This document shows, in pieces, positions 11,444 to 30,117 of a stretch of 64,000 nucleotides of DNA. The notes beneath the pieces were generated by a model. That model did no database searches and had not been told where the DNA came from. It saw only the letters and a program-made list of their open reading frames with translations. A program made the translations under genes and the position numbers. Source of the DNA: Terriglobia bacterium (lineage in GTDB: Bacteria > Acidobacteriota > Terriglobia > Terriglobales > Acidobacteriaceae); NCBI GenBank assembly GCA_020073165.1, contig JAIQFP010000005.1, positions 62,001 to 126,000 on the forward strand. Direction: 5' to 3'. The first letter of the stretch is position 1. Every line of letters starts with the position of its first letter.

Positions 11444-11482
11444 CGGGGCCTCCTAAATTCTGCTCTCCGTCTTGTAGGGTCT

Positions 11483-12226
11483 CTAGTGACGGAAAAGCTT
11501 GTGGCGCACGTCGGGCCAGAACTCCTTCATCTCGTTGAAAAGCGCACTGAGACCAATGTGGGTACCCCAGTTGGCTGCGGTATTCCCCGCGGTGCGGTCT
11601 TCGTCCGGATAATACGCGTTGGCAATGCCGGCCTCCACGGCGTTTCCCCCGAGTTCAGAGATGTTGAACTGGCTGCGGCCATTATCGCCGCGCGTGACCA
11701 CTTCCCGGCTGAGCGCGTACCCAGTGCGTTTCCAAAAGCCACCAGTTCCTTTGGTGAAATAACGGGGGTCCTGATGGAAGGCTACGGGGAAAAGGGCTTC
11801 CGTCATGAAGTTGCCGATGGCCTGGTCCCCAAAGGAAGCCCCGTAGTATCTGCCGTATCCCTCCGCCCCCTGTCCGTATCCACGGTGTTGATTCTGAGCC
11901 ATGGCGGTGCCGGCAAAGACCCCCGCTACGAGAAACGCCGAGGGATCGAAGGAATCATAACAAGCGATTTTGAACTTCGCGCCCGCAGTAAGGGGTTTGA
12001 TGTCCGCCGAATTCTCTTCCGACCGATAATTGGGAATCACCCACAGAATGCGGTGTTTGCTGGAGACGTTTTCCTGGCTATTTTGATCCGAAGCGGACGG
12101 CTGGCCGTTTGTTGGTTGTGGCGCATCCGGCAGTGCGGATTGCTGGGCCCTGGCAACGGGCAACCAGCCAAACGCAAATAACAACCAGCAGACAAGAGGC
12201 AACGATGAGGATCGCACATTAACCAT
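11483..12226 (-). CDS. Secreted hypothetical protein, outer-membrane type
   Basis: A 247-residue protein of unknown function with a signal peptide (LPLVCWLLFAFGWLPVARAQ, cleavage near residue 28). The mature protein starts with a disordered Pro/Ser/Gln stretch. It continues with aromatic- and Gly-rich segments (YGQGAEGYGRYYGASFGD, NFMTEALFPVAFHQDPRYF) seen in many acidobacterial exported proteins. I do not recognise a catalytic motif. The ATG at 12226 is chosen over a GTG eight codons upstream because it gives a compact signal peptide. Confidence 0.6.
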   Translation of the reverse strand: MVNVRSSSLPLVCWLLFAFGWLPVARAQQSALPDAPQPTNGQPSASDQNSQENVSSKHRILWVIPNYRSEENSADIKPLTAGAKFKIACYDSFDPSAFLVAGVFAGTAMAQNQHRGYGQGAEGYGRYYGASFGDQAIGNFMTEALFPVAFHQDPRYFTKGTGGFWKRTGYALSREVVTRGDNGRSQFNISELGGNAVEAGIANAYYPDEDRTAGNTAANWGTHIGLSALFNEMKEFWPDVRHKLFRH

Positions 12227-13985: not shown

Positions 13986-14004
13986 AAACAGCCCTTCCAT
14001 TCCA

Positions 14005-15024: not shown

Positions 15025-15052
15025 CGGTTGCAGTCCCTTTGCAGCGCGTAAG

Positions 15053-16045
15053 TCAGCATCGGATCAACGACGCTCCAGCCATAGCGCCCATTCCGTGGGA
15101 CGCGGCCAGCACGTAGTCTCCCGGGCATACGCTGCCGCTCTCCATCAGGGAAAGATAATTGAGCACAAAGTCGCTGCCCTGCAGGTGGCCGTGGGTCTCC
15201 CGGTTGGACGCGCAAACCCCGGCGATCTTTCCGCCAAAGATCGGCTGCAACTGCTGGTGATCTTCGGCGGAGATGTTGGGAGAAACCACCGAAGCCACAT
15301 CGTCCAGCTGAAGTCCCGAGCGGTCCAGCAAGGTACGACTCACCTTTTGCAGTGTGGCAACCCTGGGGAAAGCGTCATAACGGGCCTTGTCCAGCTCCAG
15401 CCGATACAGCCCAAGGTCATCGGGATGGACCAGGGAGCCGCCGGGGATATAGCAGATGTCGTGATTGGCACCCTCGGACGAGAGTTCGGTGTCCATTACC
15501 ACGCTGCCTGAAGCCCCACGCCGCAGCACCACGGCGCTGGCGGCATCACCCAGGACCGTAACCGGATCAGCGGGATTCAGCACGCGATTGCCAGGAATGG
15601 TGACGTCCCCGGTTACCAACAGTGCGGTCTTGAGGTTTTCATTCTCTTGCAACAGGGCCACCCCACAATTGAGCGCGACCAGGAAGTTGCTGGCCCCATT
15701 GCCGCTGAATCCGACCACAAAGGACTTGCCCGCGCCCACTTCCGCCTGGACTTTGTTGCTCATGTTCCAGACCGGCACGAGATATTCCTGCGGCAGGATC
15801 GAGTATTCGATGATGACGTCAACCTGCGCCGGATTTACCCCCGCTTTCTGCAAGGCTTCCCGCGCCGCGGCAACTGCCATGTTGGAGGCAGTCTCGCCAT
15901 TGCGGATAGGCACCTGCTGGATCCCCAGGCGGGACGCGACCTCGTCGCTCAGGCCAATGCCTTCTTCCTGGAACAGGTCTTTGACCGTGCGCTGGTGTGC
16001 CGGCAGATGGCAGACGGCAGACAAGATTCCCACTGGTTCTTTCAT
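15053..16045 (-). CDS. FabH-like protein lacking the catalytic Cys, probable partner subunit
   Basis: A 330-residue KAS III-fold protein. An ungapped alignment with the next gene (34 residues between EVGA and TALL in both) puts Ala118 (SGNGASN) where the partner has Cys123. The His box reads SPNIS, so that residue is also lost. The HGHLQ segment is kept. It therefore cannot form the usual acyl-Cys intermediate. In PqsB/PqsC and in type II chain-length factors an inactive copy pairs with an active one, which is the likely role here. It is the first gene of the operon; a 28-bp palindrome lies about 90 bp upstream. Confidence 0.82.
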   Translation of the reverse strand: MKEPVGILSAVCHLPAHQRTVKDLFQEEGIGLSDEVASRLGIQQVPIRNGETASNMAVAAAREALQKAGVNPAQVDVIIEYSILPQEYLVPVWNMSNKVQAEVGAGKSFVVGFSGNGASNFLVALNCGVALLQENENLKTALLVTGDVTIPGNRVLNPADPVTVLGDAASAVVLRRGASGSVVMDTELSSEGANHDICYIPGGSLVHPDDLGLYRLELDKARYDAFPRVATLQKVSRTLLDRSGLQLDDVASVVSPNISAEDHQQLQPIFGGKIAGVCASNRETHGHLQGSDFVLNYLSLMESGSVCPGDYVLAASHGMGAMAGASLIRC

Positions 16046-16244: not shown

Positions 16245-17630
16245 TTACGGAACGCCAGCCCGGGCTTCGACGAACTGTTGCCTGGATTGCGCTGCTTGCT
16301 TCGCCTCGTTGCTGCCCTCCAGGGTCATGTCCTTCATTCCCAGCTGAACGCCGATCTTTTTAAGGAAATCATTGGGAGGAGTACCGCCGGCGAAGATCCA
16401 GACAAAGTCATTGGGGATCTCCTGCACCTTGCCCCTAACATCCAGAACGATGCTCTCCGGTTTGAACTCCACCGGGCTGGAGTTGAAGACCACGCTGACC
16501 TTCCCGCTGCGCATGCAGTCTTCGATGCGCTTGGCGTTGCGTTCCTTGATGCGGGCAAAACGTTCCTGCCGGTACGAGAGCGTGACCTGGTTGCCGCTCT
16601 GGTGCGCCAAGCCCATGGCCGCCTCGACCGCGCTGTCGCCGCCGCCGACCACGAGGATCTTCTTGTTGATGTAGTGGTCCGCCTCGATCAGTCGGTACAT
16701 GACCTTGGGCAGTTCCTCTCCCTTAACCCCGAGTTTGCGTGGAGTCCCGGTCCGGCCCAGGGCCAGCACCACGGCGCGCGAGCGGTAGTGGTTGTTGATG
16801 GTTGTGACCGTGAAGATGCCGTCTTCGCCCCGCTGGATGTCCTCCACTTTTTCACCAGTAGCAACATTGAAGTCTGCGCGATTCAGCACCATGTCCCAGA
16901 AGGCAAGCAGGTTTTCCTTGGAGAGCTCAGTCTTCTTGAACTTTCCATACATGGGGAATTCCACGGGACTGGTCATCACCAGTTTCTGCCTGGGATACTT
17001 GGCGACCGTGCCGCCAATCTCATCCCGTTCCAACGTGATGTAGTTGAGTTTGTGCTCGATGGCACGCAAGGAGGCGCTGATCCCCGCGGGCCCGGCCCCC
17101 ACGATCAACACGTCGTAAACGTCCGGAACTGATCTGGCCGAGCCGACGAGTCTGTTCGCGATGGTATCGACGCAGTCGCGCCCCTGGTTGACGGCATTCT
17201 TGATCAAGGCCAAGCCGCCAAGTTCGCCGACGATAAACAGGTTTGGGATGCTGGTCTCATGTTCGGGCGTCAGGCGCGGCATGTCGGCACTCATGCTTGG
17301 GGTGGCCATGACCATGGTGATCGCGCCCACCGGACAAGCCTCGGCGCACAGGCTGTGGCCGATGCACTTGTACCCGTTCACGATCACCGCTTTGCCCCCG
17401 ATCATGGCCAGCACATCACCCTCCGGGCAGACGCTGGTGCAACCGCCGCAGCCGATGCAGTTGCCGGTGTCAATGTGCGGATGCTGGGCTTTGGGTCCCT
17501 CGGAAAACAGTTTGCCCTTTTCCGCCGCCTCGCGCGCCCGTGCCTCCCTTTCTTTGAGGCTCTTGAGGTGGCCGCGGACGAAGAACAGGGTAACCAGGGC
17601 GGCGATCGCGAAGGTGATCAGCGTATCCAT
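16245..17630 (-). CDS. Membrane-anchored ferredoxin/FAD NAD(P)-binding oxidoreductase
   Basis: A 461-residue protein with three parts. Residues 3-19 are an N-terminal membrane anchor. A ferredoxin-like domain has CIGCGGCTSVCP (Cys58, 61, 64, 68) and CIGHSLCAEACP (Cys89, 95, 99, with His92 where a Cys is usual). A thioredoxin-reductase-like flavoprotein starts at DVLIVGAGPAGISA near 173 and has a second nucleotide fold at ILVVGGGDSAVEAA near 320. The CxxC of thioredoxin reductases is absent. It probably moves electrons between NAD(P)H, FAD and Fe-S clusters at the cytoplasmic face. It follows the haem-b-like membrane gene by 11 bp, in a run with two multihaem cytochromes. Confidence 0.85.
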   Translation of the reverse strand: MDTLITFAIAALVTLFFVRGHLKSLKEREARAREAAEKGKLFSEGPKAQHPHIDTGNCIGCGGCTSVCPEGDVLAMIGGKAVIVNGYKCIGHSLCAEACPVGAITMVMATPSMSADMPRLTPEHETSIPNLFIVGELGGLALIKNAVNQGRDCVDTIANRLVGSARSVPDVYDVLIVGAGPAGISASLRAIEHKLNYITLERDEIGGTVAKYPRQKLVMTSPVEFPMYGKFKKTELSKENLLAFWDMVLNRADFNVATGEKVEDIQRGEDGIFTVTTINNHYRSRAVVLALGRTGTPRKLGVKGEELPKVMYRLIEADHYINKKILVVGGGDSAVEAAMGLAHQSGNQVTLSYRQERFARIKERNAKRIEDCMRSGKVSVVFNSSPVEFKPESIVLDVRGKVQEIPNDFVWIFAGGTPPNDFLKKIGVQLGMKDMTLEGSNEAKQAAQSRQQFVEARAGVP

Positions 17631-17641
17631 GCAACAATCGA

Positions 17642-18595
17642 TTAGAAATATCCCAGCACGAACTGCAACCCGATATGCACCATCGCAAGCACAGCAAAAG
17701 CGTAGCTGAAGGGTTTATGCACCACGTGCCAGAGATGGAAAACCTTTTGCGAACGGGAGAGGAACAGAATCCGCTTCGACAGGGATGCCTCTTCCGCGGC
17801 CGCTTGTACCGCCCTTTCGAGTTCACGATGACTTGTGGGGAGAAAACCGCCCACCGTGGTGATGTATTCCATTCCGCTCAGGGCATGCCGGCGAAGCCGG
17901 GCAACCCGGAATACGCGGACCAGGTCGAGCATCATCATGTACACAATCGCCACTGGCATAGGCAACCTCCCAACGCGCTCGGGGCTGGGCAGCCTCAGCA
18001 GCGCGTCGAGATCGGCTTTCGGCAGCAAATGCTGGCTGGCGATTTTCTGTGCCAGCAGGGTCTGCATCTCCTGCAATTCCTTCCGTGACAACTCGGCTGT
18101 GCTCAGAGTGCGCGGGATTTGCGCATACAGGTAACGACCGACCACGCCGCTGGCGGACACCGCGAACATGATCCAAAACGCCATGCCCGCGATCCCCTGA
18201 AATTTCAAGGAGGAGTGGAAGGCTACGATGAGCGGGGCGGTTAGGCCCATGAGGACATGGATATCGAGCCAGTGCCGGGTGCTGCCGATAGTGGCCAGCC
18301 AGGGCCAGCGCTTGCGAATCGGGTACAGGAAAATGCCCAGGAACAGGAGAACGCCGAAGAACCCCAGGTACAGGCCGACGGGGCCACTGGGCCGCAGCAG
18401 GTGGTGCTTGGGTGAAAAAGGCCGCTCCGCCGACGACAGCTTGTAGTAATCAAAACCATAGAAAAACAAGGCGAGATTCAGGGCGATGGCGATGGCATAC
18501 AACCCGTAGAGACGCAGGCGATGCCGCTTCTCCTTGTCGGGTCTGGAGATCGCCGCCGAGGCGAGAGGGACGGTGGCTGTAGCGTTGGCGCTCAT
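17642..18595 (-). CDS. Integral membrane protein with cytochrome b-like His pattern
   Basis: A 317-residue membrane protein with about five or six spans (30-52, 73-93, 107-129, 136-156, about 213-231, 296-316). Candidate haem b ligands sit in or beside spans: His108 and His113 (HWLDIH), His127, His287/290/293 (FHLWHVVH) and His307. This recalls ferric-reductase-like and formate-dehydrogenase gamma-type di-haem proteins. In context it is the likely quinone-linked electron carrier between the Fe-S flavoprotein downstream and the periplasmic cytochromes encoded upstream. Its start overlaps the stop of the secreted-protein gene by 4 bp (ATGA). No family name is certain. Confidence 0.75.
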   Translation of the reverse strand: MSANATATVPLASAAISRPDKEKRHRLRLYGLYAIAIALNLALFFYGFDYYKLSSAERPFSPKHHLLRPSGPVGLYLGFFGVLLFLGIFLYPIRKRWPWLATIGSTRHWLDIHVLMGLTAPLIVAFHSSLKFQGIAGMAFWIMFAVSASGVVGRYLYAQIPRTLSTAELSRKELQEMQTLLAQKIASQHLLPKADLDALLRLPSPERVGRLPMPVAIVYMMMLDLVRVFRVARLRRHALSGMEYITTVGGFLPTSHRELERAVQAAAEEASLSKRILFLSRSQKVFHLWHVVHKPFSYAFAVLAMVHIGLQFVLGYF

Positions 18596-19392
18596 TTGTT
18601 CGCGACTTGCTCCTCCGTACTGACTGAGAATCTCTTGTAATCCGTAAAACGATGCAAGTTACGCCAGTGCTGGCGCTGAGTTTCGACCTCCACTGTGGCC
18701 AGCGTGGGAAACCAGTATGCCTCTCTCTCGTCGCGGAAAGGGACGGGAGCGAACTCGACTTCGGAGCGGAGCGTCTTCAAACCGACGTCTTCCATGGTGT
18801 TGTCGACGCCGGCTTCGATCCGGGTGATTACTCCGGTCTGGGGATCAATTAACGCCGTGCCGGAGAGTTCGAGGGGGTATTCTTTGCCTCGCAACGCCAG
18901 GGCGGCCGGAGAGCGGGTACCGGGAATGTGCCGGAACGCGACCTTGCTCAGACGGCGGCCATCCACCACTTCGTCCTCCAGTGCAGTGAACTGAAAGCTT
19001 TGTGCATAGTAAGGATGGAAGACCAGAAACAGGGTGGCGAAGCCGTTGGTGACCAGCAGCGATGTGTTCTTCTTGTCGGGCTTGGCTTCGTGCACCGGCA
19101 GACGTGATTCATCCAAACTCAACTCCCCCCCAGGGTTGGTCAGGATGACCAGGTAGTCGTAGGTGGATTCTTCTTTTAGCTCGACTTTGGCGTCCTTACC
19201 CAGTTTCTCCTGGGTCACGTGCTCGGTGCACTTCACGTCGGAGAACTGATCGAGAAAGCCCGACACCTGCTTACTGGTACGAGTCAGGAGGCCGTCGAGA
19301 TCGTCGGCGGCGCAGAAAAGCGGCGCCAGGCAGACCAGGACGGCGAGAATGCGGCCACCCGACCGAAGCACGCCACGGGAACGCGAAATCAT
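18592..19392 (-). CDS. Secreted hypothetical protein of the cytochrome operon
   Basis: A 266-residue protein with a signal peptide (residues 1-28, ending LFCAADD). The mature part is beta-rich with segments such as STYDYLVIL, SLLVTNGFATLFLVFHPYY and LSGTALIDPQTGVITRIEAG. The last recalls outer-membrane lipoprotein-sorting and LolA/LolB-like sheets that end in a PQTG..TR hairpin. There is no haem motif. It overlaps both neighbours by 4 bp, so it is made together with the beta-barrel protein and the membrane haem-b-like protein. A periplasmic assembly or linker role is an inference. Confidence 0.7.
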   Translation of the reverse strand: MISRSRGVLRSGGRILAVLVCLAPLFCAADDLDGLLTRTSKQVSGFLDQFSDVKCTEHVTQEKLGKDAKVELKEESTYDYLVILTNPGGELSLDESRLPVHEAKPDKKNTSLLVTNGFATLFLVFHPYYAQSFQFTALEDEVVDGRRLSKVAFRHIPGTRSPAALALRGKEYPLELSGTALIDPQTGVITRIEAGVDNTMEDVGLKTLRSEVEFAPVPFRDEREAYWFPTLATVEVETQRQHWRNLHRFTDYKRFSVSTEEQVANK

Positions 19393-22262
19393 TTGCTTTT
19401 CCCCTTCGAATCAAACCGGTAGCCCACGGTGAACGACCACTGGTCGTAGCTCAACGAGCCGCGGTTCACGGTGAAGCCTCCCTGCATGAAATAGTGCGCG
19501 CCAAACGTGGTTTCTAGGTTCCCGTTCAAGAACCGCGAGCGAGTGTTGCTGGTTAACGGGCTGGTGAAATCCTGCTGTCCCGCGAGAAGCTCCAGGCGCA
19601 GGCTTTCGGTCAGGTTCCGCGATAGCGAGAACGATTTGTACGATCCGTCGCCAAAGGAGCTGTTGAAGCGCGAGTAGTGGGCATCGGCGCGCAATCCAAG
19701 CCAGGGGAGGCGATCGAAGGTGACGCCGTACATCTGGTTCAAGGAATTCCTGGCATCGCCGGTGCGGCTGCTTAACCCCAGGTCGGTGTAAAGCCAAACG
19801 TGCTTCACGACTTCGACGCGGGCGCCCGCACTGAAGCCCTGGAAAAGATACTTGTCGAGCAGGCCAGTGGGAACCAACGCCGGATCGAAGGTGGGGATAT
19901 CGCGGAAGTAGTTGTGGTTGAAGTCCAGCTCCACGCGGGGCGTGATCTGCACGCGCATGGTGAAAAAGTTCCGGCTGAGTCCCGGTCCAGGAGCCGGCAC
20001 CTGCGAATTTCCCCTTGGACTGTCGGCTTGCAGCGAGTCGTAGATCGAGAGGGTCCGCTTGTAGGACAGGGAGTTCTCGAAGAAGACAAACGGCCGGTTG
20101 ATCTGAGAGTTCAGGAAGCTCACGCCGAGCCCGGACGTGCTGCTGTAGTGGAAGGCATCGAAGCTGCCGCCTTCGAAATTGATGAAGGCGCCGCCAATTT
20201 CCTGATTAGGGTTGTAGCTCCAGGAAGTGGGATCGGGGGTGGATCCTGCGAATATCCCGGTTGTCACTCCTGGCTTCAAGCGGCGCCCGAAATACCCGCC
20301 GTCGATAGTGTCCAGGCTGGGGGCCCAGGGCAGGTAAAGCCGTCCAAATCCCGCCACCCACGCCGAGTTGGGATTGTCATAGGTCATGCTGAGGTGGTAG
20401 GTGCGATTGATCAGGTCCTGCAAGGTCTGCTGGCCGCCACCGGAGGTTGAGTTCAAGCGGCCGCGCCAGTATCCGCTCAGGTTCCAATAGGTGCCGTTGA
20501 TGCGGGTGATGTCAGCGCGCAAGACCAGGCCAAGATCAGAATTGGTGAAGCTGGAGCTGCCATGACTGATGGTACCCATGTAGTCGAGGCCGATTCGGCC
20601 GCGCGCGCGATTCACTGAGGGCAGCGGAGGCTTGGGCACCTCGGCTCGGGCTTCTTCTTCCAACGGATCGCCTTCGGTAAAGGTAACGACCGCAGGGTAT
20701 TTCCGCGTAGTGCTCAGGGCGCGTTGCTGCACCAATGCGGCCGCATCGCCCGAGGACAGGTAGGCAAGGTCTCCGGGCTTTACCGGACGCTTGGGGCTGT
20801 GAATGTCGGTAACCGCAGAGGTTTCCGCGACTCCGGTGATCTCGAGTTCGGCGACTACATGGGGGTCGGAGGGATCAACGCTGGTCCCCTGTTGCGCCGG
20901 CAAGTCGGTGTCCTTAATCTCGAGCTTCATGCCCTCGGTAAGCCCTGAACTCCGGCCGCCATCGAGGTAGGCAACGCCTTCGGCGACATATTTCACCTTG
21001 AAAACGGTGCGCAGGTTGGGATCTGCGGCACGCAGCAACAGCACCGGCTGGTCCGCCCCGCCAGTGGCACCCGCCGGCGTCTCCGGACTGCTCGGAGCCG
21101 CCTCCGCAGTTTCGACCGGCTCAGGCGCGCTGGCGACCGCACCTTGTTCCGTGGACCCCGGGGATGGGAGAGAGGGAGGGCTTGGCGGAACAAGGGCGGT
21201 CGTGGGATGAGCTGCAGTGGAACCGGAAGCGTCTTGGGGAGCGGGCGGGTTTGACGGCACGGATGGCGGGACTGCGGCGGCAGCCTGACTGCTATCGAAG
21301 GCGCCGGTCGTCGTCGACTGCGGCACTGGTGCTGAGATCGCAGGGACGGACGTGTTCGCTACAGTCGGAGCAGGCTGGGGCTGGGCTGAAGCAGCTTCTG
21401 TGTTTGGCTGCGGCGCTGGTGCAACAGCGGTCGGCGCGGGGGTTCCGGTCGCGGAGGCGGACCCGGAAAATCCTGAATGCGCTTGTGCTGCAGTGCCGTT
21501 TGCCTGCACAGCACCTGCGGATACTGCGTCAAAACCAGCGTGGGATGTCCCATCCACGGGCGGAACCTTGTCGGCGCCCGGCGATCCAAGACTGGGAAAG
21601 ACGGTTCCTTGCTGCAAGCTACCGTAGTTGGGATGCACGGCAGTGGGCCGGGAGGAGGATCCGCTGGCAGTCGTGGCAGTCCCGCTGTTGGCCGGCTGAT
21701 CTGGAGGAAACACAATCGGCGACTGCGATGGAGGCGGCGGAGGCAGGGGGACAGAGTCACTCGCGGCCACGGCTGGAGGGGCCTTGGGCTCCCGGCGAAA
21801 TACTCCTATGAGCCCGCCGCCGGACGCGGCCGCGGCGGGCGTATTTCGACGGGCACTGGAACGCGCATTCACAGGGCTCACGGTCAGGGTGATAACCGTG
21901 CCGTTCGACTTCAGCGCGTACGGCGCCATCTGGTCGAGGTCCAAGACCACATGCGTGACCGGGGGGGCAGCGCTATTCAGGCCCATGCGCACGCTGCGCA
22001 CGCCGTTCGAGTTGACGGGAATGTGCCGCTGCCTGGGGCCAGACAGTGTGTTCGGCAACTCGAGCACCAGCCGGTCGGGATGGCTGGCGGTGACCACGGA
22101 GGCATTGACGGGCGCGCTGAGTGTGACCTCAACCCGGACGCTGCTGCCGTCGCGCGCCACTTTCACATCTTGCACCGTCGCTGGATCTGGAGCCGTGCCT
22201 TGTCCCAACGCTACCGACACCAGCAGGAAGAGAGTCCCGAATTGTTTCTGTACTGCCGTCAT
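19389..22262 (-). CDS. Outer-membrane beta-barrel protein with N-terminal AMIN domain
   Basis: A 957-residue exported protein. A signal peptide (1-20) is followed by an AMIN domain (about 30-135: VQDVKVARDG, RLVLELPN, THVVLDLD), a fold that binds peptidoglycan in secretins and amidases. Then come about 290 disordered residues rich in Pro, Ala, Ser and Thr. A small beta domain (about 430-530, AYLDGGRSSGLTEGMKLEI) follows. A C-terminal barrel of about 400 residues, with alternating aromatic strands, ends in WSFTVGYRFDSKGKSK. The barrel size suits a porin-cytochrome conduit. It follows the 31-haem gene by 89 bp and overlaps the secreted-protein gene by 4 bp. Confidence 0.8.
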   Translation of the reverse strand: MTAVQKQFGTLFLLVSVALGQGTAPDPATVQDVKVARDGSSVRVEVTLSAPVNASVVTASHPDRLVLELPNTLSGPRQRHIPVNSNGVRSVRMGLNSAAPPVTHVVLDLDQMAPYALKSNGTVITLTVSPVNARSSARRNTPAAAASGGGLIGVFRREPKAPPAVAASDSVPLPPPPPSQSPIVFPPDQPANSGTATTASGSSSRPTAVHPNYGSLQQGTVFPSLGSPGADKVPPVDGTSHAGFDAVSAGAVQANGTAAQAHSGFSGSASATGTPAPTAVAPAPQPNTEAASAQPQPAPTVANTSVPAISAPVPQSTTTGAFDSSQAAAAVPPSVPSNPPAPQDASGSTAAHPTTALVPPSPPSLPSPGSTEQGAVASAPEPVETAEAAPSSPETPAGATGGADQPVLLLRAADPNLRTVFKVKYVAEGVAYLDGGRSSGLTEGMKLEIKDTDLPAQQGTSVDPSDPHVVAELEITGVAETSAVTDIHSPKRPVKPGDLAYLSSGDAAALVQQRALSTTRKYPAVVTFTEGDPLEEEARAEVPKPPLPSVNRARGRIGLDYMGTISHGSSSFTNSDLGLVLRADITRINGTYWNLSGYWRGRLNSTSGGGQQTLQDLINRTYHLSMTYDNPNSAWVAGFGRLYLPWAPSLDTIDGGYFGRRLKPGVTTGIFAGSTPDPTSWSYNPNQEIGGAFINFEGGSFDAFHYSSTSGLGVSFLNSQINRPFVFFENSLSYKRTLSIYDSLQADSPRGNSQVPAPGPGLSRNFFTMRVQITPRVELDFNHNYFRDIPTFDPALVPTGLLDKYLFQGFSAGARVEVVKHVWLYTDLGLSSRTGDARNSLNQMYGVTFDRLPWLGLRADAHYSRFNSSFGDGSYKSFSLSRNLTESLRLELLAGQQDFTSPLTSNTRSRFLNGNLETTFGAHYFMQGGFTVNRGSLSYDQWSFTVGYRFDSKGKSK

Positions 22263-22351
22263 TCCCCGTTGTCACTCGCTGGCGCTCCGCTTGCCGCCGG
22301 AATCTTGTGTTCGTCTTTCTGACTCAGCACGTAAAGGGCCTTGTCGCAGGT

Positions 22352-24766
22352 CTAACCGCCGCCCTGGCCAGTGGGATGGCACTGGTAACAATTGATGCTG
22401 TTGTACACGTAACCCTTCACGCCCTGGTGCTCCTGGTCCGTCGTCGTCTTGGAGTGCGTGTGGCAACCGGTGCAGGTGAAGATCGAGTAGTCGTTCGCGT
22501 TGGTGTGGCAGTCGCTGCAGGTGGAGATCCCGTGGTGCGGCGTCGGGAACCAGGTGTGATTGAAGGTAGCGTCCGTCCACACCTTGGTGTCGTGGCAGGT
22601 CTGGCAGGTGGTGGGGAAGCCAGCAGCCTTATGATTCGGATTGGTGGTCGCGTCGTAATCCGCTTTGTGACAACCGTAGCAGTCCGTCGGAAGGGTGGTG
22701 TAGTTGTTGTTGACGTGGCAATCCGCGCACTGCCGCGGCGGAACCGTGTGCGAGCCGGTCAGGGGGAACGTGGTGGTGTTGTGATCGAACTTGCCGTCGG
22801 TCCAGACAACCGTGTCGTGGCACAGCTCGCAGGTCGTGGGGAAGCCGGCCGCGATGTGGTCCACGGGAGTTTTGGCGTTGTTGTAGTCGTTCAGGTGGCA
22901 ACTGACGCAGGCCGTGGTGTTCAGCTTGTAGTTGTTGTTGACGTGGCAGTCGCCGCACTGGCGTGGCGGGACGGTGTGCGCGCCGGTCAGGGCAAACCCA
23001 GTCGTCGAGTGATCGAAGCTCGCGCCACTCCAGGACGTCGTGCTGTGACAAGACTCGCAAGTCGTCGGGAACCCGGCCGCTACGTGGTTGGGATCGGTGG
23101 TGCCCTGGTAGTCCTTCAAGTGGCAACCCACGCACGCCGTATCGGTCAGGTTGTAGTTGTTGTTGACGTGACAATCTGTACACTGCCGCGGCGGTACGGT
23201 ATGCGCTCCCGTCAAGGTGAAGCCCGTGGTGCTGTGATCGAACTTTCCGTTGGCCCAGGCCACCGTATCGTGACACTGCTCGCAGGTCGTTGGGAACCCG
23301 GCCGAGATGTGGTTCACCGGCGAGACCGCGCCGTTGTAATCGGCCTGGTGGCAGCTCACGCAGGCCGTAGTGGTCAGGTTGTAGTTATTGTTGACGTGGC
23401 AGTCGGTACACTGCCGGGGCGGGACGGTGTGCGAGCCCGTCAGCGGAAAGCCGGTGCTCGAGTGATTGAAGGTCGCGCCGTCCCACGATGATGTGCTGTG
23501 GCACTGCTCGCAGGTCTGGGGGAAGTTCGCCGTGACGTGGTTGGGATTGGTCGTGCCCTGGTAATCCTTCAGGTGGCAGCTCACGCAGGCCGCAGTGGTC
23601 AGGTTGTAGTTGTTGTTGATGTGGCAGTCGGTGCATTGCCGCGGCGGGACGGTATGCGCGCCGGTCAAGGGGAAAGCGGACTTGGAGTGATCGAACTGCG
23701 CCGGCTGCCAGGCCGTGGTGGTGTGGCACATCTCGCAACTCTGGCTGAATCCCGCTTGCATATGGTTCGGATTGGTGGCGTTCTGAAAGTCCTTCAAGTG
23801 ACAGGACACGCAAGCCGTGCTGGTCAGGTTGTAATTATTGTTGATGTGGCAGTCTGCACATTGGCGGGGCGGAACCGAGTGCGCGCCCGTCAACGGGAAA
23901 TTGACCGTGGAGTGGTCAAAGGTCGCAGGACTCCAGGACGCCGTGGAGTGGCAGGTCTGGCAGGTCTGCGGGAAGCCGCCCTGCACGTGCGGCGGGTTGG
24001 TCGTGCCCTGGAAATCCTTCAGGTGGCAACTGACGCACGCGGTGGTGGTCAGGTTGTAGTTGTTGTTGACGTGGCAGTCGGCGCACTGCAGCGGGGGCAC
24101 AGCGTGCGCGAAGGTCAACGGAAATCCGGTGGCGGCGTGATCGAATTTTGCATTAAGCCAATTGTCCATCCCGTGGCAGAGTTCGCAGCTGGTGGAGAAC
24201 TGCCCGGCGATGTGGTTGGGACTGGTGGCCTGCTGGTATTCCTTGGAGTGACACGAATAACACTGTGTGGATAACCCTTGGAACTGCCCGGTGGCTGCGC
24301 CCTTGTGACAAGAGTCGCAGTCCACGGCGGCGTGAGCTCCCACCAGCGGAAAGCGGTTTTGGTGCTGCTTGATCTGCTGGATTGAGACCTGCCACCCCTT
24401 CACGGTATGGCACTGCTCGCAGCCTGCCCCAAACTGGCGCTTGTGGATGTCGGCGTGGCAATCGGCGCACTGTGTACCGACGTTAGAGAACACCGGCTTG
24501 GTGTGACACTGGGTGCAGGTGACCGACTGATGCATGCCGCGCAAGGGGTAGCGGGTCTGGTTGTGATCGAATTCCGGAACGGCGCGGATTGGTTTCCAAC
24601 CCAGTGCGGTATGGCAGTTCTGGCAGGGAATGTTCAGATTGCCGTGCGGGCTACGGGTGGTGGTGTAAACCTGCCCCTGCCCGGCCGCCGAAGCACCCAC
24701 CGGCAGCAGCAGAAACGAGACAACCAGATTCACCAGGATCGTCGGAACCAACGCGCCCCACCCCAA
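22352..24766 (-). CDS. 31-haem c-type cytochrome with tandem tri-haem modules
   Basis: An 804-residue exported protein with a signal sequence (about 1-28) and 31 CxxCH motifs, one per 26 residues. Residues 194-720 are seven tandem units of 75-76 residues. Each unit has three CxxCH plus three further His (FDHS, TG[AS]H and [ND]H), matching bis-His ligation of every haem. A final partial unit and a tail CYQCH close the protein. It must mature in the periplasm and should act as a long electron wire. The first start codon in frame is TTG at 24766; a GTG at 24733 would give a shorter signal. A TGG-N8-TTGCT sequence 75 bp upstream suggests a sigma-54 promoter. Confidence 0.93.
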   Translation of the reverse strand: MGWGALVPTILVNLVVSFLLLPVGASAAGQGQVYTTTRSPHGNLNIPCQNCHTALGWKPIRAVPEFDHNQTRYPLRGMHQSVTCTQCHTKPVFSNVGTQCADCHADIHKRQFGAGCEQCHTVKGWQVSIQQIKQHQNRFPLVGAHAAVDCDSCHKGAATGQFQGLSTQCYSCHSKEYQQATSPNHIAGQFSTSCELCHGMDNWLNAKFDHAATGFPLTFAHAVPPLQCADCHVNNNYNLTTTACVSCHLKDFQGTTNPPHVQGGFPQTCQTCHSTASWSPATFDHSTVNFPLTGAHSVPPRQCADCHINNNYNLTSTACVSCHLKDFQNATNPNHMQAGFSQSCEMCHTTTAWQPAQFDHSKSAFPLTGAHTVPPRQCTDCHINNNYNLTTAACVSCHLKDYQGTTNPNHVTANFPQTCEQCHSTSSWDGATFNHSSTGFPLTGSHTVPPRQCTDCHVNNNYNLTTTACVSCHQADYNGAVSPVNHISAGFPTTCEQCHDTVAWANGKFDHSTTGFTLTGAHTVPPRQCTDCHVNNNYNLTDTACVGCHLKDYQGTTDPNHVAAGFPTTCESCHSTTSWSGASFDHSTTGFALTGAHTVPPRQCGDCHVNNNYKLNTTACVSCHLNDYNNAKTPVDHIAAGFPTTCELCHDTVVWTDGKFDHNTTTFPLTGSHTVPPRQCADCHVNNNYTTLPTDCYGCHKADYDATTNPNHKAAGFPTTCQTCHDTKVWTDATFNHTWFPTPHHGISTCSDCHTNANDYSIFTCTGCHTHSKTTTDQEHQGVKGYVYNSINCYQCHPTGQGGG
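22607..24187 (-). repeat. Seven tandem 225-228 bp coding repeats (tri-haem modules)
   Basis: Seven in-frame repeats of 75 or 76 codons inside the 31-haem gene. Units run CxxCH, FDHS, FPLTG[AS]H, VPPRQC.DCH, NNNY, CVSCH, NH. Units 2-6 share long near-identical stretches, so the array grew by recent internal duplication and may vary in copy number between strains. Confidence 0.9.
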
Positions 24767-24840
24767 AGCGGAATCGACCCAAACAGCGAATGTAAGAATG
24801 AAAAAGTTAAGAAGACGAGAGGGCGGCTAAGAAACACGTA

Positions 24841-24856
24841 AGCAATTCGACGCCCA
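24841..24856 (-). promoter_or_regulatory. Putative sigma-54 promoter of the 31-haem cytochrome operon
   Basis: The reverse strand reads TGGGCGTCGAATTGCT. The -24 GG and -12 GC are exactly 10 bases apart, and the -12 element TTGCT is perfect. The -24 element matches TGG but not the following CAC. Predicted start is near 24831, leaving a 65-base leader. Confidence 0.5.
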
Positions 24857-24950
24857 GTTAGATTAATTGGTTGTGCACCCCATCAAAAGTTACGCAAGTA
24901 TGTGTTCAACAGGCCAATGCACTGGCGGTCCAAATCTGTGTCCGGGCAGC

Positions 24951-24968
24951 ATGTACTTCCGAGTACAT
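24951..24968. promoter_or_regulatory. Perfect inverted repeat, possible activator-binding site
   Basis: ATGTACTTCCGAGTACAT has 7-bp perfect arms and a 4-base centre. It lies about 130 bp upstream of the transcription start predicted from the sigma-54-like sequence at 24841-24856, a usual distance for NtrC-type enhancer sites. No T-tract follows, so it is not an intrinsic terminator. Confidence 0.45.
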
Positions 24969-25055
24969 GTAACTTCTTCGGAGTGGCCGCAGTTTTTCCC
25001 AGGTTTTACGCGGGTTTCTGAGCGTTCAGAATCCTTGACGTGTACAAAAATCTGT

Positions 25056-27062
25056 TCAAAAGGTTGGCGTGACGACGCTCGGTGAACTGGGAACAAGGCC
25101 CCCTTTTGTCGCCGGCCCATGGCACGCTGCGCAATCCTTCGGAGTGGGCTTGTAGAAGAGTACGGTCTTTCCTTCGACCAAGCGGGTCAAGGTATGGCAC
25201 CGCTCACAGCGCACGTTACGGTGCACCCCCTGCAGCGCGAACTGAGTGCGGGTGTCATGGTCGAAGAGCGACGGCTTCCACTTCGCGCTGTTGTGGCAGT
25301 CGGAGCAGGCGGTCACGCCATTCTTTGCGAATTGCTTGCCGTGGATATCTTCGTGGCACTCCTCGCACTTGGTAGGCGCGGCCTTGAAATCCACATTGAT
25401 CAGGGTGGTTTCCAGATTGGGAGGCTTGTGGCAGTCCATGCAGGCGGTGGCGCGATGGGCCCCGATCAATGGGAAGGAAGTCCGGGAATGGTCGAAGTCG
25501 GAGAGTTCCTTCCAGGACTTGGTGGTGTGGCAAGCCTCGCACCCGGCGGCTTTGCCGTCGGCGCGGGTTTGCCGCATGCGCTCATTGAACTGTCCCTTGT
25601 GCGGGTCGGTGTGGCAAGTCGTGCAGGAAAGATTGTCCCAGTGATAGAGGACCGCCGGCTTGGGTTGGAGGTCCGCATATTCCTTGTGGCAATCGCCACA
25701 CGGGATGGCGACATGCCCTCCAGTTAGTACGAAATGGGTGTCCTTGTGCCGTGTCAGCGTAAAGGTGGATGGCTTGTATCCCTGGAGGTTATGGCAGCGT
25801 TCGCAGGCGTTGAAGTATGGAGCCGCCGCAAACTGGCCGGCGTGCTGGTCGCGGTGGCAATCGGTGCAGTGCTGGAACTTGATTTTGAAGAGCGTGTCTT
25901 TCCCCTTTGGAATATGGCATTGGTCGCATTGCACCGCGGCGTGCTTTCCCTCCAGCGGATAAGCCGAGGTTGCGTGGTCTTGCACGGTGAATTTCGCGGG
26001 TTTGAAGCCATCCACCGTATGGCAGGAGGCGCACTCAGCTCCTCCGGGGCGCTTGGCGAATTGTCCCTTGTGCGGATCGGGCTGGTGGCAATCCATACAC
26101 TTCTGGAAGGCCAGCGGCTTCTTGAAATCTCCGCCGGCGTGGCATTGCGCACAATCTACCGTGGCGTGTTTACCTAGCAGGGGATACTGTGTCTTTGAGT
26201 GGTCAAAGCGCTGGTTGACGGCTTCGGTTGAAACTCTCTTCCATCCGCTTGTGTTGTGGCAGGCCTGGCAACCCTGGGCGAAGCTGCCATGGTGCGGATC
26301 GCTGTGACAATCGGAACACTGGCCAAAGGGGATGCCGGTATAACGGGGCTTGTTGTCGGGCCCGGGCGTGTGACACTTCTGGCAAGCCACCTGGGCGTGC
26401 AGTCCGGTCAGCGGGTAGCGCGTTTTGGAGTGGTCGAACTGGCCGACAGTCACGGTCTTCCAGTCATTGTAGGTGTGGCACTGGAGGCAGTTCGCACCCA
26501 GGCGTCCCTTGTGCTGGTCCTGGTGACAGGTGACGCAGTTCTGGGAAACACCCAGAAAGGTCCGATTCAGGTCCTTGATCTTGATCTCCGGGCGCTCGGA
26601 CGGAGACACGTGCTCAGGACTGTGGCACTTGTTGCAAGTCAGACCCGCGTGCTTGCCTTCGAGCGCGTATCCGGCCTGCTTGTGATCGAAGCTATTCGGG
26701 TCCCACTTGATGAGGGGAAAATCCTCCCCGTTGTGCTCGGAGTGGCAGCGCACGCATTCCTGGCTGGACCCCGGGGCGATGTGATAGGTGGCGTGCAGGC
26801 CCTGGTGCGCCGTCAGGCGCGAAGCAATCTCCGTGTGGCAATCCAGACACCTGAAATTAGCTGATCCCGCACCCAGCTTGTGACAACTGGCGCAGTTGGT
26901 GGCGCCGTTCAGGGATTGGTGGGGGCGGGAGAGTGGTCCGGGCGAAATTTGCCCTTCGGCTTTCGGGACAAATCCGAGAAAGAGGCTGATCACAAGGGCT
27001 GCGAGCAGCAGCGGCCACGCTGGGCGCACCACGCCCGGGGGTGCGGGACGCTCCGCAAGCAT
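25056..27062 (-). CDS. 23-haem c-type cytochrome
   Basis: A 668-residue exported multihaem cytochrome with 23 CxxCH motifs. Haems come in repeating groups of the form CxxCH...FDHSKTxYPLxGxH..V.C..CH...CxxCHxDxHxGxF...C..CH, so the spare His of FDHS, GxH and DxH can serve as distal ligands. The signal peptide is residues 1-37 (PAWPLLLAALVISLFLG, then KAEGQ). ATG 27062 is chosen for this reason; in-frame starts at 27224 (ATG) and 27239 (TTG) would add a long non-hydrophobic extension. It precedes the 31-haem gene by 289 bp on the same strand. It probably passes electrons in the periplasm between the inner-membrane module and the outer-membrane complex. Confidence 0.92.
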   Translation of the reverse strand: MLAERPAPPGVVRPAWPLLLAALVISLFLGFVPKAEGQISPGPLSRPHQSLNGATNCASCHKLGAGSANFRCLDCHTEIASRLTAHQGLHATYHIAPGSSQECVRCHSEHNGEDFPLIKWDPNSFDHKQAGYALEGKHAGLTCNKCHSPEHVSPSERPEIKIKDLNRTFLGVSQNCVTCHQDQHKGRLGANCLQCHTYNDWKTVTVGQFDHSKTRYPLTGLHAQVACQKCHTPGPDNKPRYTGIPFGQCSDCHSDPHHGSFAQGCQACHNTSGWKRVSTEAVNQRFDHSKTQYPLLGKHATVDCAQCHAGGDFKKPLAFQKCMDCHQPDPHKGQFAKRPGGAECASCHTVDGFKPAKFTVQDHATSAYPLEGKHAAVQCDQCHIPKGKDTLFKIKFQHCTDCHRDQHAGQFAAAPYFNACERCHNLQGYKPSTFTLTRHKDTHFVLTGGHVAIPCGDCHKEYADLQPKPAVLYHWDNLSCTTCHTDPHKGQFNERMRQTRADGKAAGCEACHTTKSWKELSDFDHSRTSFPLIGAHRATACMDCHKPPNLETTLINVDFKAAPTKCEECHEDIHGKQFAKNGVTACSDCHNSAKWKPSLFDHDTRTQFALQGVHRNVRCERCHTLTRLVEGKTVLFYKPTPKDCAACHGPATKGGLVPSSPSVVTPTF

Positions 27063-27403: not shown

Positions 27404-28705
27404 GTGTTCAAGAAACTGTACTCAGACTCACCCTCGCCGGTCTCTGACCTGGGCTCGTTCCGGCGGCAGGAATCAATCTTCATCGTCCTGAACCTGGCCC
27501 TGCTGGCGGTTCTCCTGCTGCTGCATGCAGGCTTCGCCTCCTACTGGGGAACGCCTACGCGGGCACTGGTGGCTGTGCTAGGCGCGGGCTTCCTGCTGAA
27601 AGCAGTGGAATTGATTTGGGTGCGGAAGCTGACACGGGCGCCGAGCCCGACGGCGCTGGCACTGCTGACCTGGAGTTCGATCACGCTGAACCTGGTGCTC
27701 GCGGTAGCGCTCACATGGATAGCCGACCACGAAGACAGTCCTTACCTGGTGCTGCTGGTCATGCCCATTCTGGAAGCGGCTTTCCGCTTCCGCTTGTTTA
27801 CGGTGCTGGCTGTCATGGTCATGGCTGATTTCTACAGCTTCCTGGCTCCCTGGCAGTACTTCCAGCATCATCCGCCCACGGACATTGGGGAATATTTTGA
27901 GGCTGGGATCACCTCGCTGACGTTGCTGATTGTAGGAGTGCTGGTCTGGTACCTGGTGAACGACCTGCGGCAGAAGGAAACGCATCTGGCAAACAACTTG
28001 CTGGAACTGGAAGGCACGCGGGAGAAATTGCTGCAGGAGGAAAAGCTGGCTGCCGTGGGACGACTGTCCAGTGCGATCGCACACGAGATCCGCAACCCGG
28101 TTTCCATGATTTCCAGTTCTCTGGCGACGGCCAAACAACTGAGCGGGCCGGAACGGGAGGAGATGTTCGAAATCGCCTCGGAAGAAGCGTCGAGACTGGT
28201 GATGCTGACCACGGACTTTCTCGCTTACGCCCGGCCGCGACCGCCGAAGGTTGTGCTCAGCTCGGTGACGGACACGGTGGCTTATGTCGCCGATGCATGC
28301 CGGGCCCACGCCAGCCAGAGGAATGTGCACCTCCGGGTTGATGCTGCGGAAAGCCTCACAGCGGAAGTCGATACCGGACAACTGCAGCAAGCTCTGATCA
28401 ACTTGGTGATGAATGCGGTAGAGGCCTCGCCTGCGAACGGGACGGTGTCACTTCGAGTACATGACGGCAATCGGCAGGTATGCATTGACGTCGAAAATGC
28501 TGGCGCTCCCATTCCCGAGCCCACGCGTTCGAGGATTTTCGAACCGTTCTTTACCACCAGGCCGGAGGGCAGCGGGCTTGGCCTGGCGATTGCACGCAAC
28601 ATCGCACGCGCCCATGGTGGCGACTTGACGCTGTCGGCAAACGACTCCCAGGGGATTTGTTTTTCGCTGACTTTACCGCTGCCCAACGGGCACCTACAAA
28701 AATAA
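27404..28705 (+). CDS. Membrane sensor histidine kinase, NtrB-like
   Basis: A 433-residue kinase. The first 190 residues form about six membrane spans with short loops and no large periplasmic domain. A short coiled coil leads to the HisKA box AVGRLSSAIAHEIRNPVSMI (phospho-His near residue 225). The ATPase domain follows with NLVMNAVEAS (N box), FEPFFTTRPEGSGLGLAIARN (F/G boxes). Without a PAS domain, the membrane part is the likely sensor, perhaps of quinone redox state. The start is GTG at 27404 with AGGAG upstream. It is divergent from the cytochrome genes and 8 bp before its partner regulator. Confidence 0.9.
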   Translation: MFKKLYSDSPSPVSDLGSFRRQESIFIVLNLALLAVLLLLHAGFASYWGTPTRALVAVLGAGFLLKAVELIWVRKLTRAPSPTALALLTWSSITLNLVLAVALTWIADHEDSPYLVLLVMPILEAAFRFRLFTVLAVMVMADFYSFLAPWQYFQHHPPTDIGEYFEAGITSLTLLIVGVLVWYLVNDLRQKETHLANNLLELEGTREKLLQEEKLAAVGRLSSAIAHEIRNPVSMISSSLATAKQLSGPEREEMFEIASEEASRLVMLTTDFLAYARPRPPKVVLSSVTDTVAYVADACRAHASQRNVHLRVDAAESLTAEVDTGQLQQALINLVMNAVEASPANGTVSLRVHDGNRQVCIDVENAGAPIPEPTRSRIFEPFFTTRPEGSGLGLAIARNIARAHGGDLTLSANDSQGICFSLTLPLPNGHLQK

Positions 28706-28713
28706 GAGAACAA

Positions 28714-30117
28714 ATGGCAAGAATCCTGATCGTTGACGACGAACCCAACATGCGCCGCATCCTGGCTTCCAATCTCCGCCAGGACAAGCACGAGATCTCG
28801 GAAGCGTCGGGTGTGGAGGAAGCCCGCCGGAGCCTCGCCAACGACGACTACGAGGTTGTCATCACTGATCAAAAGATGCCCGACGGCGAAGGGCTCGCGG
28901 TCCTGGCGGCAGCGCGCGAGTCCGATCCCACTCTCTCAGTGATTTTCCTGACTGCTGTGGCCAGCATCGAACTGGCAGTCGAGAGCATGCGGCATGGGGC
29001 CTTCGACTTTCTGACCAAGCCGTTCCAACCGGAAGTAGTCCGGGCCACGGCGCAACGCGCCTGGGAGCGCACCCGCCTGTTGCGCGAAAACGAACTGCTC
29101 AAGGATACCGTGGTTCGCCTGGAGGGCGCCTCGGAGATCTTCGGGGAGAGCGCGGCCATGCGCGAGGTGCGCGAAAAGATCGCGCGGGTCGCGCCCACCA
29201 ACGCCACCGTCCTGATCACCGGCGAAACCGGCACCGGCAAGGAACTGGTGGCCCGCGCCATCCACCGCAACAGTCCTCGATCCTCCAAGCCATTCGTCGC
29301 GGTCAATTGCGCCGCCTTTACCGAGACCCTGCTGGAAAGCGAGCTGTTCGGCCACGAAAAAGGAGCGTTTACCGGCGCTGACCGCACTCGGCAAGGCTTG
29401 TTTGAAGCCGCCCACGAAGGCACGCTCTTCCTGGATGAGGCGGGAGAGATGTCGCCGGCGGCGCAAGCCAAGCTGCTGCGCATTCTTACCGACGGTCAAC
29501 TTCTGCGCGTCGGTTCCACCCACCCGCGCACCGTAGATGTCCGCGTCCTGGTGGCCACGCACCGCGACCTTAGACAGCGGGTACGTGAAAGTCTCTTCCG
29601 CGAAGACCTGTTCTACCGCCTGGCTGTGGTGCCAATTCATTTGGCTCCCTTGCGGGAGCGCCGTGACGACGTCCCCGGCCTCTGCGAGATGTTTTCCCGG
29701 CAGGTTGCTCTGGAGCTTAAGCTGCCGGGAAGAAAGATCAGCCCACAAGCGGTCGAGGCGCTGCAGCGCTACGCGTTTCCGGGCAATGTGCGGGAACTCA
29801 AGAACCTGATCGAGCGGGCCTACATTCTTTCCGCACACGGCGAGATCAGGGTCGAGGATTTCCCCGTCCCGCAAGGAGCCGCCATGGCTGCCGCCGCTCC
29901 CGGCAACAGCCCTAGTGTCGTCCAGCAGGTCACGGGTTCAGTGGGTGACTCCTTCGATTTGACCGCCCTCCTGGAGCAAGCTGAGAAGGAACTCATCCTG
30001 CGGACGCTGGGCGCCACCGGGGGAGCGCAAGCCGAAGCCGCACGACGCATGGGGCTTTCCCGCAGCGCCCTGGCTTATAAACTGAACAAGTACGGAATCC
30101 GAACCAGCGCGGAGTAA
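28714..30117 (+). CDS. Sigma-54-dependent response regulator, NtrC family
   Basis: A 467-residue three-domain activator. The receiver (1-120) has DD at 8-9, phospho-acceptor Asp52 in VITDQKMPDG and Lys in LTKPF. The AAA+ domain has Walker A GETGTGKE, the sigma-54-contacting loop GAFTGA and LFLDEAGEMS. A Fis-type helix-turn-helix lies at the C-terminus (AEAARRMGLSRSALAYKLNKYGI). It is co-transcribed with the kinase. Since both cytochrome genes across the divergent region carry sigma-54-like sequences, it is the likely activator of that operon. The ATG at 28714 removes a spurious overlap with the kinase. Confidence 0.95.
   Translation: MARILIVDDEPNMRRILASNLRQDKHEISEASGVEEARRSLANDDYEVVITDQKMPDGEGLAVLAAARESDPTLSVIFLTAVASIELAVESMRHGAFDFLTKPFQPEVVRATAQRAWERTRLLRENELLKDTVVRLEGASEIFGESAAMREVREKIARVAPTNATVLITGETGTGKELVARAIHRNSPRSSKPFVAVNCAAFTETLLESELFGHEKGAFTGADRTRQGLFEAAHEGTLFLDEAGEMSPAAQAKLLRILTDGQLLRVGSTHPRTVDVRVLVATHRDLRQRVRESLFREDLFYRLAVVPIHLAPLRERRDDVPGLCEMFSRQVALELKLPGRKISPQAVEALQRYAFPGNVRELKNLIERAYILSAHGEIRVEDFPVPQGAAMAAAAPGNSPSVVQQVTGSVGDSFDLTALLEQAEKELILRTLGATGGAQAEAARRMGLSRSALAYKLNKYGIRTSAE

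Follow-up and report, generated by a model that had tools for sequence, protein, structure and literature searches.

A stretch of 64,000 nucleotides from a Terriglobia bacterium of the phylum Acidobacteriota (contig JAIQFP010000005.1, positions 62,001 to 126,000; hereafter the window) carries, on its reverse strand, six genes that probably encode a trans-envelope electron conduit of the PCC3 type that has an NAD(P)H dehydrogenase of its own on the cytoplasmic side. In transcription order, the genes encode a 23-haem cytochrome, a 31-haem cytochrome, an outer-membrane barrel protein with an AMIN domain, a secreted protein, an inner-membrane protein that we call MemB, and a flavoprotein (Table 1). 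All six reading frames are intact between 16245 and 27062, and successive genes are separated by 289, 89, -4, -4 and 11 bp. The initial annotation of this DNA had described the same six genes, the last four packed by 4-bp overlaps or an 11-bp gap, and its gene and family calls stood up to closer analysis. The frame of the 23-haem gene begins at 27239 with TTG, with an ATG at 27062, the start taken in the initial annotation, preceding a signal-peptide-like segment, and the listed frame of the 31-haem gene also starts at TTG. For this locus and its relatives we computed gene content, domains, haem-ligand conservation, a predicted barrel fold, synteny, a rule for haem number and natural gene fusions.

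A scan for MemB across 84,980 species genomes, which detects close relatives only, returned 25 loci, every one with an acidobacterial title. MemB was matched in 27 of 149 sampled genomes of the phylum at E 1e-3 (14 of these above 125 bits) and in 25 of 100 sampled genomes of the family at E 1e-20. Because only part of the sampled genomes match, the module is patchy. For synteny we assembled 63 loci (L032-L069, L081, L109-L131 and the window), which collapsed to 59 via identical MemB C-termini. Outside this set stand L001-L031, short stretches around matches, several of which recur as L057-L069; L070-L080, which comprise modules that are weak or paralogous, further parts of the genome that holds the window, and second places in the genome AB60; L082 (H4); and L083-L108, short stretches covered more widely as L109-L131 except for G000, G073 and G023, which were already in the set.

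The full six-gene set, in one order and on one strand, is present in 31 of the 59 distinct loci. Another 15 have a gene cut at a contig or stretch end, and the remaining 13 lack the plain six-gene order (L041, L049, L053, L055, L056, L058, L062, L064, L066, L067, L069, L081 and L131), with L049 and L058 keeping that order but having an extra flavoprotein or split frames. Counted over all 59 loci, cut ones included, the flavoprotein is found in 57, the barrel in 49, the outer (31-haem-type) cytochrome in 46, the secreted protein in 45 and the inner (23-haem-type) cytochrome in 42. The flavoprotein gene directly follows memB in most loci; in L130 it is inverted and cut. In divergent families (L061, L064, L066 and L067), the genes for MemB, the flavoprotein, both cytochromes and the barrel are reordered, and the secreted-protein gene was not found.

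The barrel adjoins the outer cytochrome even where clusters are rearranged or split between contigs (L064, L066, L067, L079 and L081). This pairing bears on a different reading of the locus, as a redox store or reductase located in the periplasm or at the outer membrane, with the cytochromes serving as capacitors or as feeders of periplasmic enzymes and the barrel being an unrelated porin. Such a store would be consistent with the Pfam and NCBIfam searches, in which none of the six proteins showed a terminal reductase domain, and a capacitor role is mentioned for PCC3 in passages of PMC10734462. However, both the frequency of the barrel, with several of the loci that lack it being cut, and its persistence beside the outer cytochrome argue against a store, which we consider very improbable.

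The module also extends beyond the Acidobacteriota. In a tblastn search of 72,556 plasmid records, MemB hit a single record (E 0.01) and so did the 23-haem protein (E 1e-20), in both cases plasmid pEMTOL02 of Emticicia oligotrophica DSM 17448 (Bacteroidota). There, consecutive genes encode a CcsA/ResB protein, MemB, the flavoprotein, two cytochromes with 23 and then 40 haems, and the barrel. Relative to the window, MemB is 29.8% identical and the flavoprotein 42.3%, and the barrel matches with 46.5 bits (8.8e-16); among the eight proteins examined in this cluster, none matched the secreted protein. Synteny of barrel and cytochromes is kept in relatives, both in the 31 loci with the full six-gene set and in Emticicia. 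The gene heading the Emticicia cluster (L081, 5821-8907) is of the CcsA/ResB cytochrome c assembly type, and conduit and cytochrome maturation may travel together on this plasmid. A flavoprotein match on a Pseudoalteromonas plasmid (H4) was rejected as a member, being surrounded by glycosyltransferase genes with no annotated cytochrome or barrel.

The two cytochromes carry far more CXXCH motifs than chance would give: 31 and 23, compared with means of 0.39 and 0.23 when the residues of each were shuffled 500 times, the highest count being 3. A phmmer search with either cytochrome gave no match at E 0.001, a result that is uninformative for such biased sequences. We then compared haem numbers across relatives, restricting the counts to single, uncut open reading frames (ORFs; 38 inner, 39 outer) and leaving out L058, in which both cytochromes are split across frames. 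The inner cytochrome has exactly 23 motifs in 36 of the 38 ORFs, the exceptions being L067 (20) and L035, where 20 lie in the main ORF and 2 more in a frame that overlaps it, probably through a frameshift. The outer cytochrome occurs with 14 different haem numbers, ranging from 16 to 55, of which the form 3n+1 accounts for 36 of the 39 ORFs. The exceptions are a fusion in L062 (51 = 23 + 28), L120 (42) and L124 (39), and haem spacing suggests that L120 and L124 have each lost one motif.

Haem spacing further divides the outer cytochrome into an N-cap with 4 haems and, after it, a series of triheme units, each some 75 residues long. In the window, the 31-haem gene contains a DNA tandem repeat (22699-24145) with a period of 225 or 453 bp, scoring higher at 453 bp, or two units. 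In L062 and L065, the inner and outer cytochromes are naturally fused into one protein with the inner part first; the periodicity starts after haem 27 and the N-cap lies at haem 24, leaving exactly 23 haems ahead of it. The L065 fusion ends at the contig end, and its MemB is intact. The order and haem count of these fusions suggest end-to-end contact between the two cytochromes, and a constant inner length combined with a variable outer length fits one part that spans the periplasm and another that projects from it. Taken together, the patterns fit a predicted 23-haem periplasmic rod of fixed length, joined end to end with an elastic outward wire.

We modeled residues 405-957 of the barrel protein with AlphaFold2 using 28 sequences (alignment A1: 27 of 33 references plus the window, with 6 partial ones omitted). 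The model (mean pLDDT 71.0, pTM 0.57) places 22 strands within its residues 148-547, in agreement with the earlier call of a barrel in the C-terminal 400 residues. The Foldseek matches listed are FimD, OprD-type porins, AlgE and other outer-membrane barrels (best E 2.0e-9), and those listed by VIA are siderophore and other TonB-dependent receptors, with Fiu at Z 17.4 (358 residues aligned, rmsd 4.8). MtrB is absent among the matches listed by either program, which rules nothing out. By sequence, the window barrel did not match MtrB_PioB (PF11854) up to E 0.1, and no such match is listed for the 28 members up to E 1. The window's genome, of 4.6 Mb, encodes no other member of this barrel family and gave no MtrB_PioB match in a scan that rang only weakly in one control genome. 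The domain ahead of the barrel shows a weak likeness to FlgT_C in 16 of 28 members (E up to 1, best 5.5e-4). Searches of PDB sequences with profiles of the barrel, MemB and the secreted protein returned chance-level matches only.

The AMIN domain had been counted as a peptidoglycan-binding part of the module. It is present in the window protein (Pfam E 2.1e-12) but is optional, occurring in 4 of 13 barrel proteins scanned with Pfam (the window, L034, L038 and L113); it was not found in those of L049, L051, L052, L054, L064, L121, L061, L066 and Emticicia, the L061 and L066 proteins having been scanned minus their first residues. For the secreted protein, neither Pfam nor NCBIfam gave a match up to E 0.1, and 25 members of its family gave only weak, scattered Pfam matches (PorA in 8, best E 0.0021). 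Its structural model (mean pLDDT 79.5, pTM 0.75) matches LolA3 in Foldseek (E 5.6e-7, TM-scores 0.41 and 0.44), and in VIA a lipoprotein-sorting domain (Z 10.8, 182 residues aligned, rmsd 3.9), followed by DUF1329, LolA3 and LolB. The predicted fold is LolA-like, and the protein probably aids assembly of the barrel or the cytochromes. Its gene is limited by lineage, as the divergent families and Emticicia illustrate.

MemB, at 317 residues, was aligned with 34 of 46 related rows (alignment A2; duplicates, fragments and weak paralogues omitted). Residues H113, H127, S149, G150, G153, W289, H290, H293 and H307 are invariant in the 35 aligned members. Both WX3HX13H motifs are present in 39 of 40 members of at least 270 residues, the other (L004) having HX13H without the first W. 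Pfam matches are weak (E up to 1): DUF4405 in 27 of the 35, Ferric_reduct (PF01794) in 22, with a best value of 4e-4, and Ni_hydr_CYTB, again weakly, in 6. Simple hydropathy marks segments at 27-48, 70-95, 134-153, 211-229 and 296-317, the stretch from H113 to H127 falling below the threshold used. The haem-b-like His pairs noted at first (H113 and H127, H293 and H307) are thus among the invariant residues, and MemB is predicted from its motifs to bind a stack of two b haems that crosses the inner membrane.

The flavoprotein combines a Pyr_redox_3 domain (E 5.7e-43) with Fer4 domains, and its N-terminus has one hydrophobic segment followed by basic residues, with two Fe-S motifs downstream, all as expected for the membrane-anchored Fe-S/FAD NAD(P)-type oxidoreductase that had been proposed. 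The FAD/NAD(P) region is closest to YpdA/Bdr, thioredoxin reductase (TrxR) and TrxR-type ferredoxin-NADP reductases (FNR). Its conserved cysteines are those of the Fe-S motifs; the FAD/NAD(P) part has no conserved CXXC pair, which fits an FNR-type enzyme rather than a disulphide reductase. In 54 of 58 flavoproteins, the second Fe-S motif reads CxxHxxCxxxCP, a His replacing the second Cys. At the His site L066 has Ala and L067 Ile, and the fragment in L046 and the second copy in L049 are without the motif. In the Emticicia protein, the second Cys is missing from the first motif too. One possibility raised by these motifs is a cluster that is His-ligated or contains three irons.

From these observations we infer complex formation, cytochrome placement, the direction of flow, the NAD(P)H donor, quinone independence and the substrate. 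NAD(P)H in the cytoplasm would reduce the FAD of the anchored flavoprotein, and electrons would pass through its Fe-S clusters to the two b haems of MemB and so across the inner membrane. From these haems electrons would enter the 23-haem cytochrome, a rod whose fixed length would bridge the periplasm as far as the outer membrane, where the 22-stranded barrel would provide the passage for the haem chain. The 3n+1-haem cytochrome would act as a wire of adjustable length leading outward to an external acceptor, in soil likely Fe(III) or Mn(IV) oxides or humics. We propose this order because of the membrane layers and the fusions. The start at NAD(P)H is suggested by the family of the flavoprotein, by its conserved adjacency to MemB and by the neighbors of distant MemB-like proteins, which are FAD/cNMP/Fe-S or NuoEF-like proteins.

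Those distant MemB-like proteins adjoin FAD/cNMP/Fe-S proteins in L071-L073, together with 10-haem cytochromes. In the window's own genome, L076 (G000:C31, 7604-13707) encodes a NuoEF-like protein, an Fe-S protein with two cNMP-binding domains, a MemB-like protein and a 10-haem cytochrome; this set may be a second route from NADH to a cytochrome. In L071, the 10-haem ORF (9172-11661, 830 aa) has FHA-type domains near both ends, which would be odd for a cytochrome; it adjoins the FAD/cNMP/Fe-S protein and the MemB-like protein.

The initial annotation placed MemB at the quinone level. That it is a membrane protein is borne out; a quinone role is at most a possibility, and its conserved neighbor, an NAD(P)H-type flavoprotein, suggests direct supply from the cytoplasm. 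The corresponding alternative is a conduit that runs via the quinone pool, with MemB exchanging electrons with quinone and the flavoprotein being an accessory, for example in NAD(P)H:quinone or reverse electron transfer. Quinone exchange by the membrane protein is what He et al. (2017, PMC5566968) proposed in their passages on PCC3, where the cluster is described with four genes and no flavoprotein, and the weak Ni_hydr_CYTB matches of six MemB members point the same way. The window's genome also has a separate NapC/NirT-type gene, with further multihaem cytochrome genes around it (G000:C19:59686-67962), and ImcH homologues are reported in Acidobacteria in the relevant text of PMC6295460; together these make a quinol-fed route an alternative. 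Against it stand the presence of the flavoprotein in nearly all MemB loci, mostly directly after MemB and in a second phylum as well, and the FRD-type spacing of the four His residues, which resembles that of NAD(P)H-fed ferric reductases and NOX. On balance, a quinone-fed conduit seems rather unlikely to us, and we prefer the NAD(P)H-fed one.

Electron transfer from Fe(II) to NAD(P)+ is strongly uphill. For this reason, and because two b haems give no coupling, outward flow is favored. Inward flow, with extracellular Fe(II) or another donor feeding NAD(P)+ or quinone, would be compatible with multihaem wires working in both directions, and PCC3 is discussed as a candidate Fe(II)-oxidation system in parts of PMC5566968 and PMC12442390. 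However, established bioenergetics would demand an energy coupling that the module does not appear to contain, which leaves electron uptake improbable.

Several observations weigh against an NAD(P)H-fed trans-envelope conduit. The barrel model is only moderate (its pTM is given above), with Foldseek TM-scores of 0.15-0.51 to the listed barrels, and neither a lipoprotein box nor a signal for surface display was identified in the outer cytochrome. A stop interrupts MemB in L062, one of the two loci with a fusion, and this locus may be decaying or misassembled. In AB60, L053 retains the 23-haem cytochrome, secreted protein, MemB and flavoprotein genes in that order, with barrels on other contigs, in two places. 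L055 has only the secreted protein, MemB and flavoprotein genes; its 20.9 kb contain neither a cytochrome nor a barrel, and its genome has no member of the barrel family. MemB might conceivably have a quinone site, and the NapC/NirT-type protein could feed the wire instead. Of the two AB60 barrels (L079 and L080), one lies beside a 46-haem cytochrome; the other has as its neighbor a fragment of an outer-family cytochrome with 7 haems.

The conduit type itself is already known. MtrCAB and OmbB-OmaB-OmcB had been taken as the nearest known conduits, but PCC3 is closer, and a haem-b-type membrane protein, counted at first as an addition to known conduits, already belongs to PCC3, as do two giant cytochromes. 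The passages on PCC3 in PMC5566968 define it in Proteobacteria (Alpha-, Beta- and Gamma- are named) as an inner-membrane protein combined with a barrel and a pair of giant cytochromes; the texts on PCC3 there and in PMC10734462 place PCC4 in Planctomycetes as well. A gene cluster with these parts is seen here. The PCC3 membrane protein is described as about 300 residues long, with SGXXG, two WX3HX13H motifs and five transmembrane helices, the motifs lying on helices 3, 4 and 5 (PMC5566968), and MemB of the window carries SGXXG and both WX3HX13H. Haem density in PCC3 is given as 22-39 residues per haem, with haem-bearing repeats (PMC5566968); here it is 25.9 in the 31-haem and 29.0 in the 23-haem cytochrome, with tandem repeats in the outer one. 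Periplasm-spanning and outward-reaching roles are likewise proposed in those texts (PMC5566968, PMC10734462), PMC5566968 stating that the cytochromes could bridge the inter-membrane space. We judged this relation by motifs and layout.

The module differs from PCC3, as far as those passages describe it, in several ways. Four genes are given there, and the flavoprotein and LolA-like protein of the module are not among them; the porin has up to 42 predicted strands there and 22 here; and the phyla are Acidobacteriota and Bacteroidota rather than Proteobacteria. Periplasmic haem number varies in PCC3, whereas it is nearly always 23 here: the extracellular multihaem cytochrome of PCC3 has a median of 34 and up to 85 haems and the periplasmic one a median of 21 (PMC5566968, PMC10734462), and in Gallionellaceae the inner one has 21, 24 or 27 and the outer one 10-35, with long linear models (PMC10734462). 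PCC3 function is called untested in PMC12442390.

The barrel and the inner and outer multihaem cytochromes also recall MtrCAB, MtoAB and PioAB, from which the module differs in its haem numbers (23 and 3n+1, against 10 and 10 there), in a barrel with no MtrB_PioB match, and in having its own haem-b protein and flavoprotein. Likeness to MtrA/DmsE is weak, the 23-haem protein scoring 52.1 bits against the DmsE-family cut-off of 192.2. In NOX, two b haems are fed by a cytoplasmic NAD(P)H-FAD module. MemB appears to resemble FRD and NOX proteins in two HX13H motifs, predicted to form helices for two b haems, with a putative module of this kind adjoining; the differences are that the FAD module is a separate TrxR/FNR-type Fe-S protein and that the proposed acceptor is a multihaem c wire. 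The FRD motif is described in PMC5566968.

Among metagenome-assembled genomes (MAGs) from karst, as presented in parts of PMC13264449, a ferredoxin-NADP reductase gene lies near 7 of 11 porin-cytochrome conduits (PCCs) of Group 1, and functional coupling is suggested; Group 1 has a single large decahaem cytochrome, unlike the module here, and appears closer to L071-L073. Some cytochromes in Group 3, which comprises 7 PCCs, exceed 20 haem motifs, and this group may contain relatives of the window module, and 21 of the 36 PCC-bearing MAGs are Gammaproteobacteria or Acidobacteriota. Acidobacterial decahaem cytochromes are linked to tundra-soil iron reduction in passages of PMC3669403. A search of an open-access library, which lacks most subscription papers and preprints, found no paper naming PCC3, Acidobacteria and cytochromes together. 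What is new here is the occurrence in these phyla, a co-conserved flavoprotein of NAD(P)H type in whose second Fe-S motif a His is substituted, the presence of a LolA-like protein, and the 23 and 3n+1 rule with its fusions.

We conclude that the trans-envelope conduit first proposed for these genes is well supported as an inference. Of the two outcomes named beforehand as refuting it, a C-terminus predicted not to be a barrel and a lack of synteny between barrel and cytochromes in relatives, neither appeared; its comparators, its quinone level and the part given to AMIN needed correction. More tentatively, and with the balance tipping slightly the other way, the module could be a quinone-independent, NAD(P)H-fed wire with a fixed 23-haem rod and an outer reach tuned by gain and loss of triheme modules. 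If so, it would bypass the quinone pool of well-known Gram-negative systems, in at least two phyla and once on a plasmid, and these bacteria could shed reducing power to the outside without using their respiratory chain. Its occurrence in soil Acidobacteriota and on the plasmid of a named strain offers a place for tests of PCC3, and the conserved flavoprotein is a testable electron source. The haem-number rule and the 23-first fusions amount to a structural hypothesis in which the periplasmic span is fixed and the outer reach adjustable.

Table 1. Genes and domains of the predicted conduit and the adjacent regulatory pair, in window coordinates.
Feature	Position	Strand	Basis and remarks
23-haem exported cytochrome	25056..27062	-	23 CXXCH, 29.0 residues per haem; assigned as inner cytochrome, putative periplasmic rod
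31-haem exported cytochrome	22352..24766	-	31 CXXCH; assigned as putative outer wire; 4-haem N-cap, 75-residue triheme units, C-cap
AMIN, linker, FlgT_C-like domain and 22-stranded outer-membrane barrel	19389..22262	-	Pfam, AlphaFold2, structural matches
AMIN domain, residues 32-122 of barrel protein	21897..22169	-	Pfam; optional in relatives
Barrel proper, residues 552-951	19410..20609	-	AlphaFold2 model
Secreted LolA-like protein	18592..19392	-	Predicted fold
MemB, inner-membrane protein with two WX3HX13H and SGXXG, predicted two b haems	17642..18595	-	Motifs, alignment
Membrane-anchored flavoprotein: N-terminal helix, two Fe-S motifs (the second CxxHxxCxxxC), TrxR/FNR-type FAD/NAD(P) domains	16245..17630	-	
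Histidine kinase and NtrC-type regulator, divergent	27404..30117	+	Possible regulator, outside conduit count

Close homologues of the kinase or regulator adjoin the operon in 5 of 17 loci compared (L032, L034, L035, L037 and L040), several of the 17 having too little upstream sequence to judge. We rejected a sigma-54 promoter as the partner of the NtrC-type regulator: the -24/-12 pattern, allowing up to 2 mismatches, has no match between 27063 and 27403, and its 38 matches in the window compare with 39.9 expected. On the other side of the six genes, and unmatched in the 25 named acidobacterial MemB loci, positions 12330-16045 carry an FAD halogenase/monooxygenase-like gene and two ketoacyl synthase III-like genes in a row.

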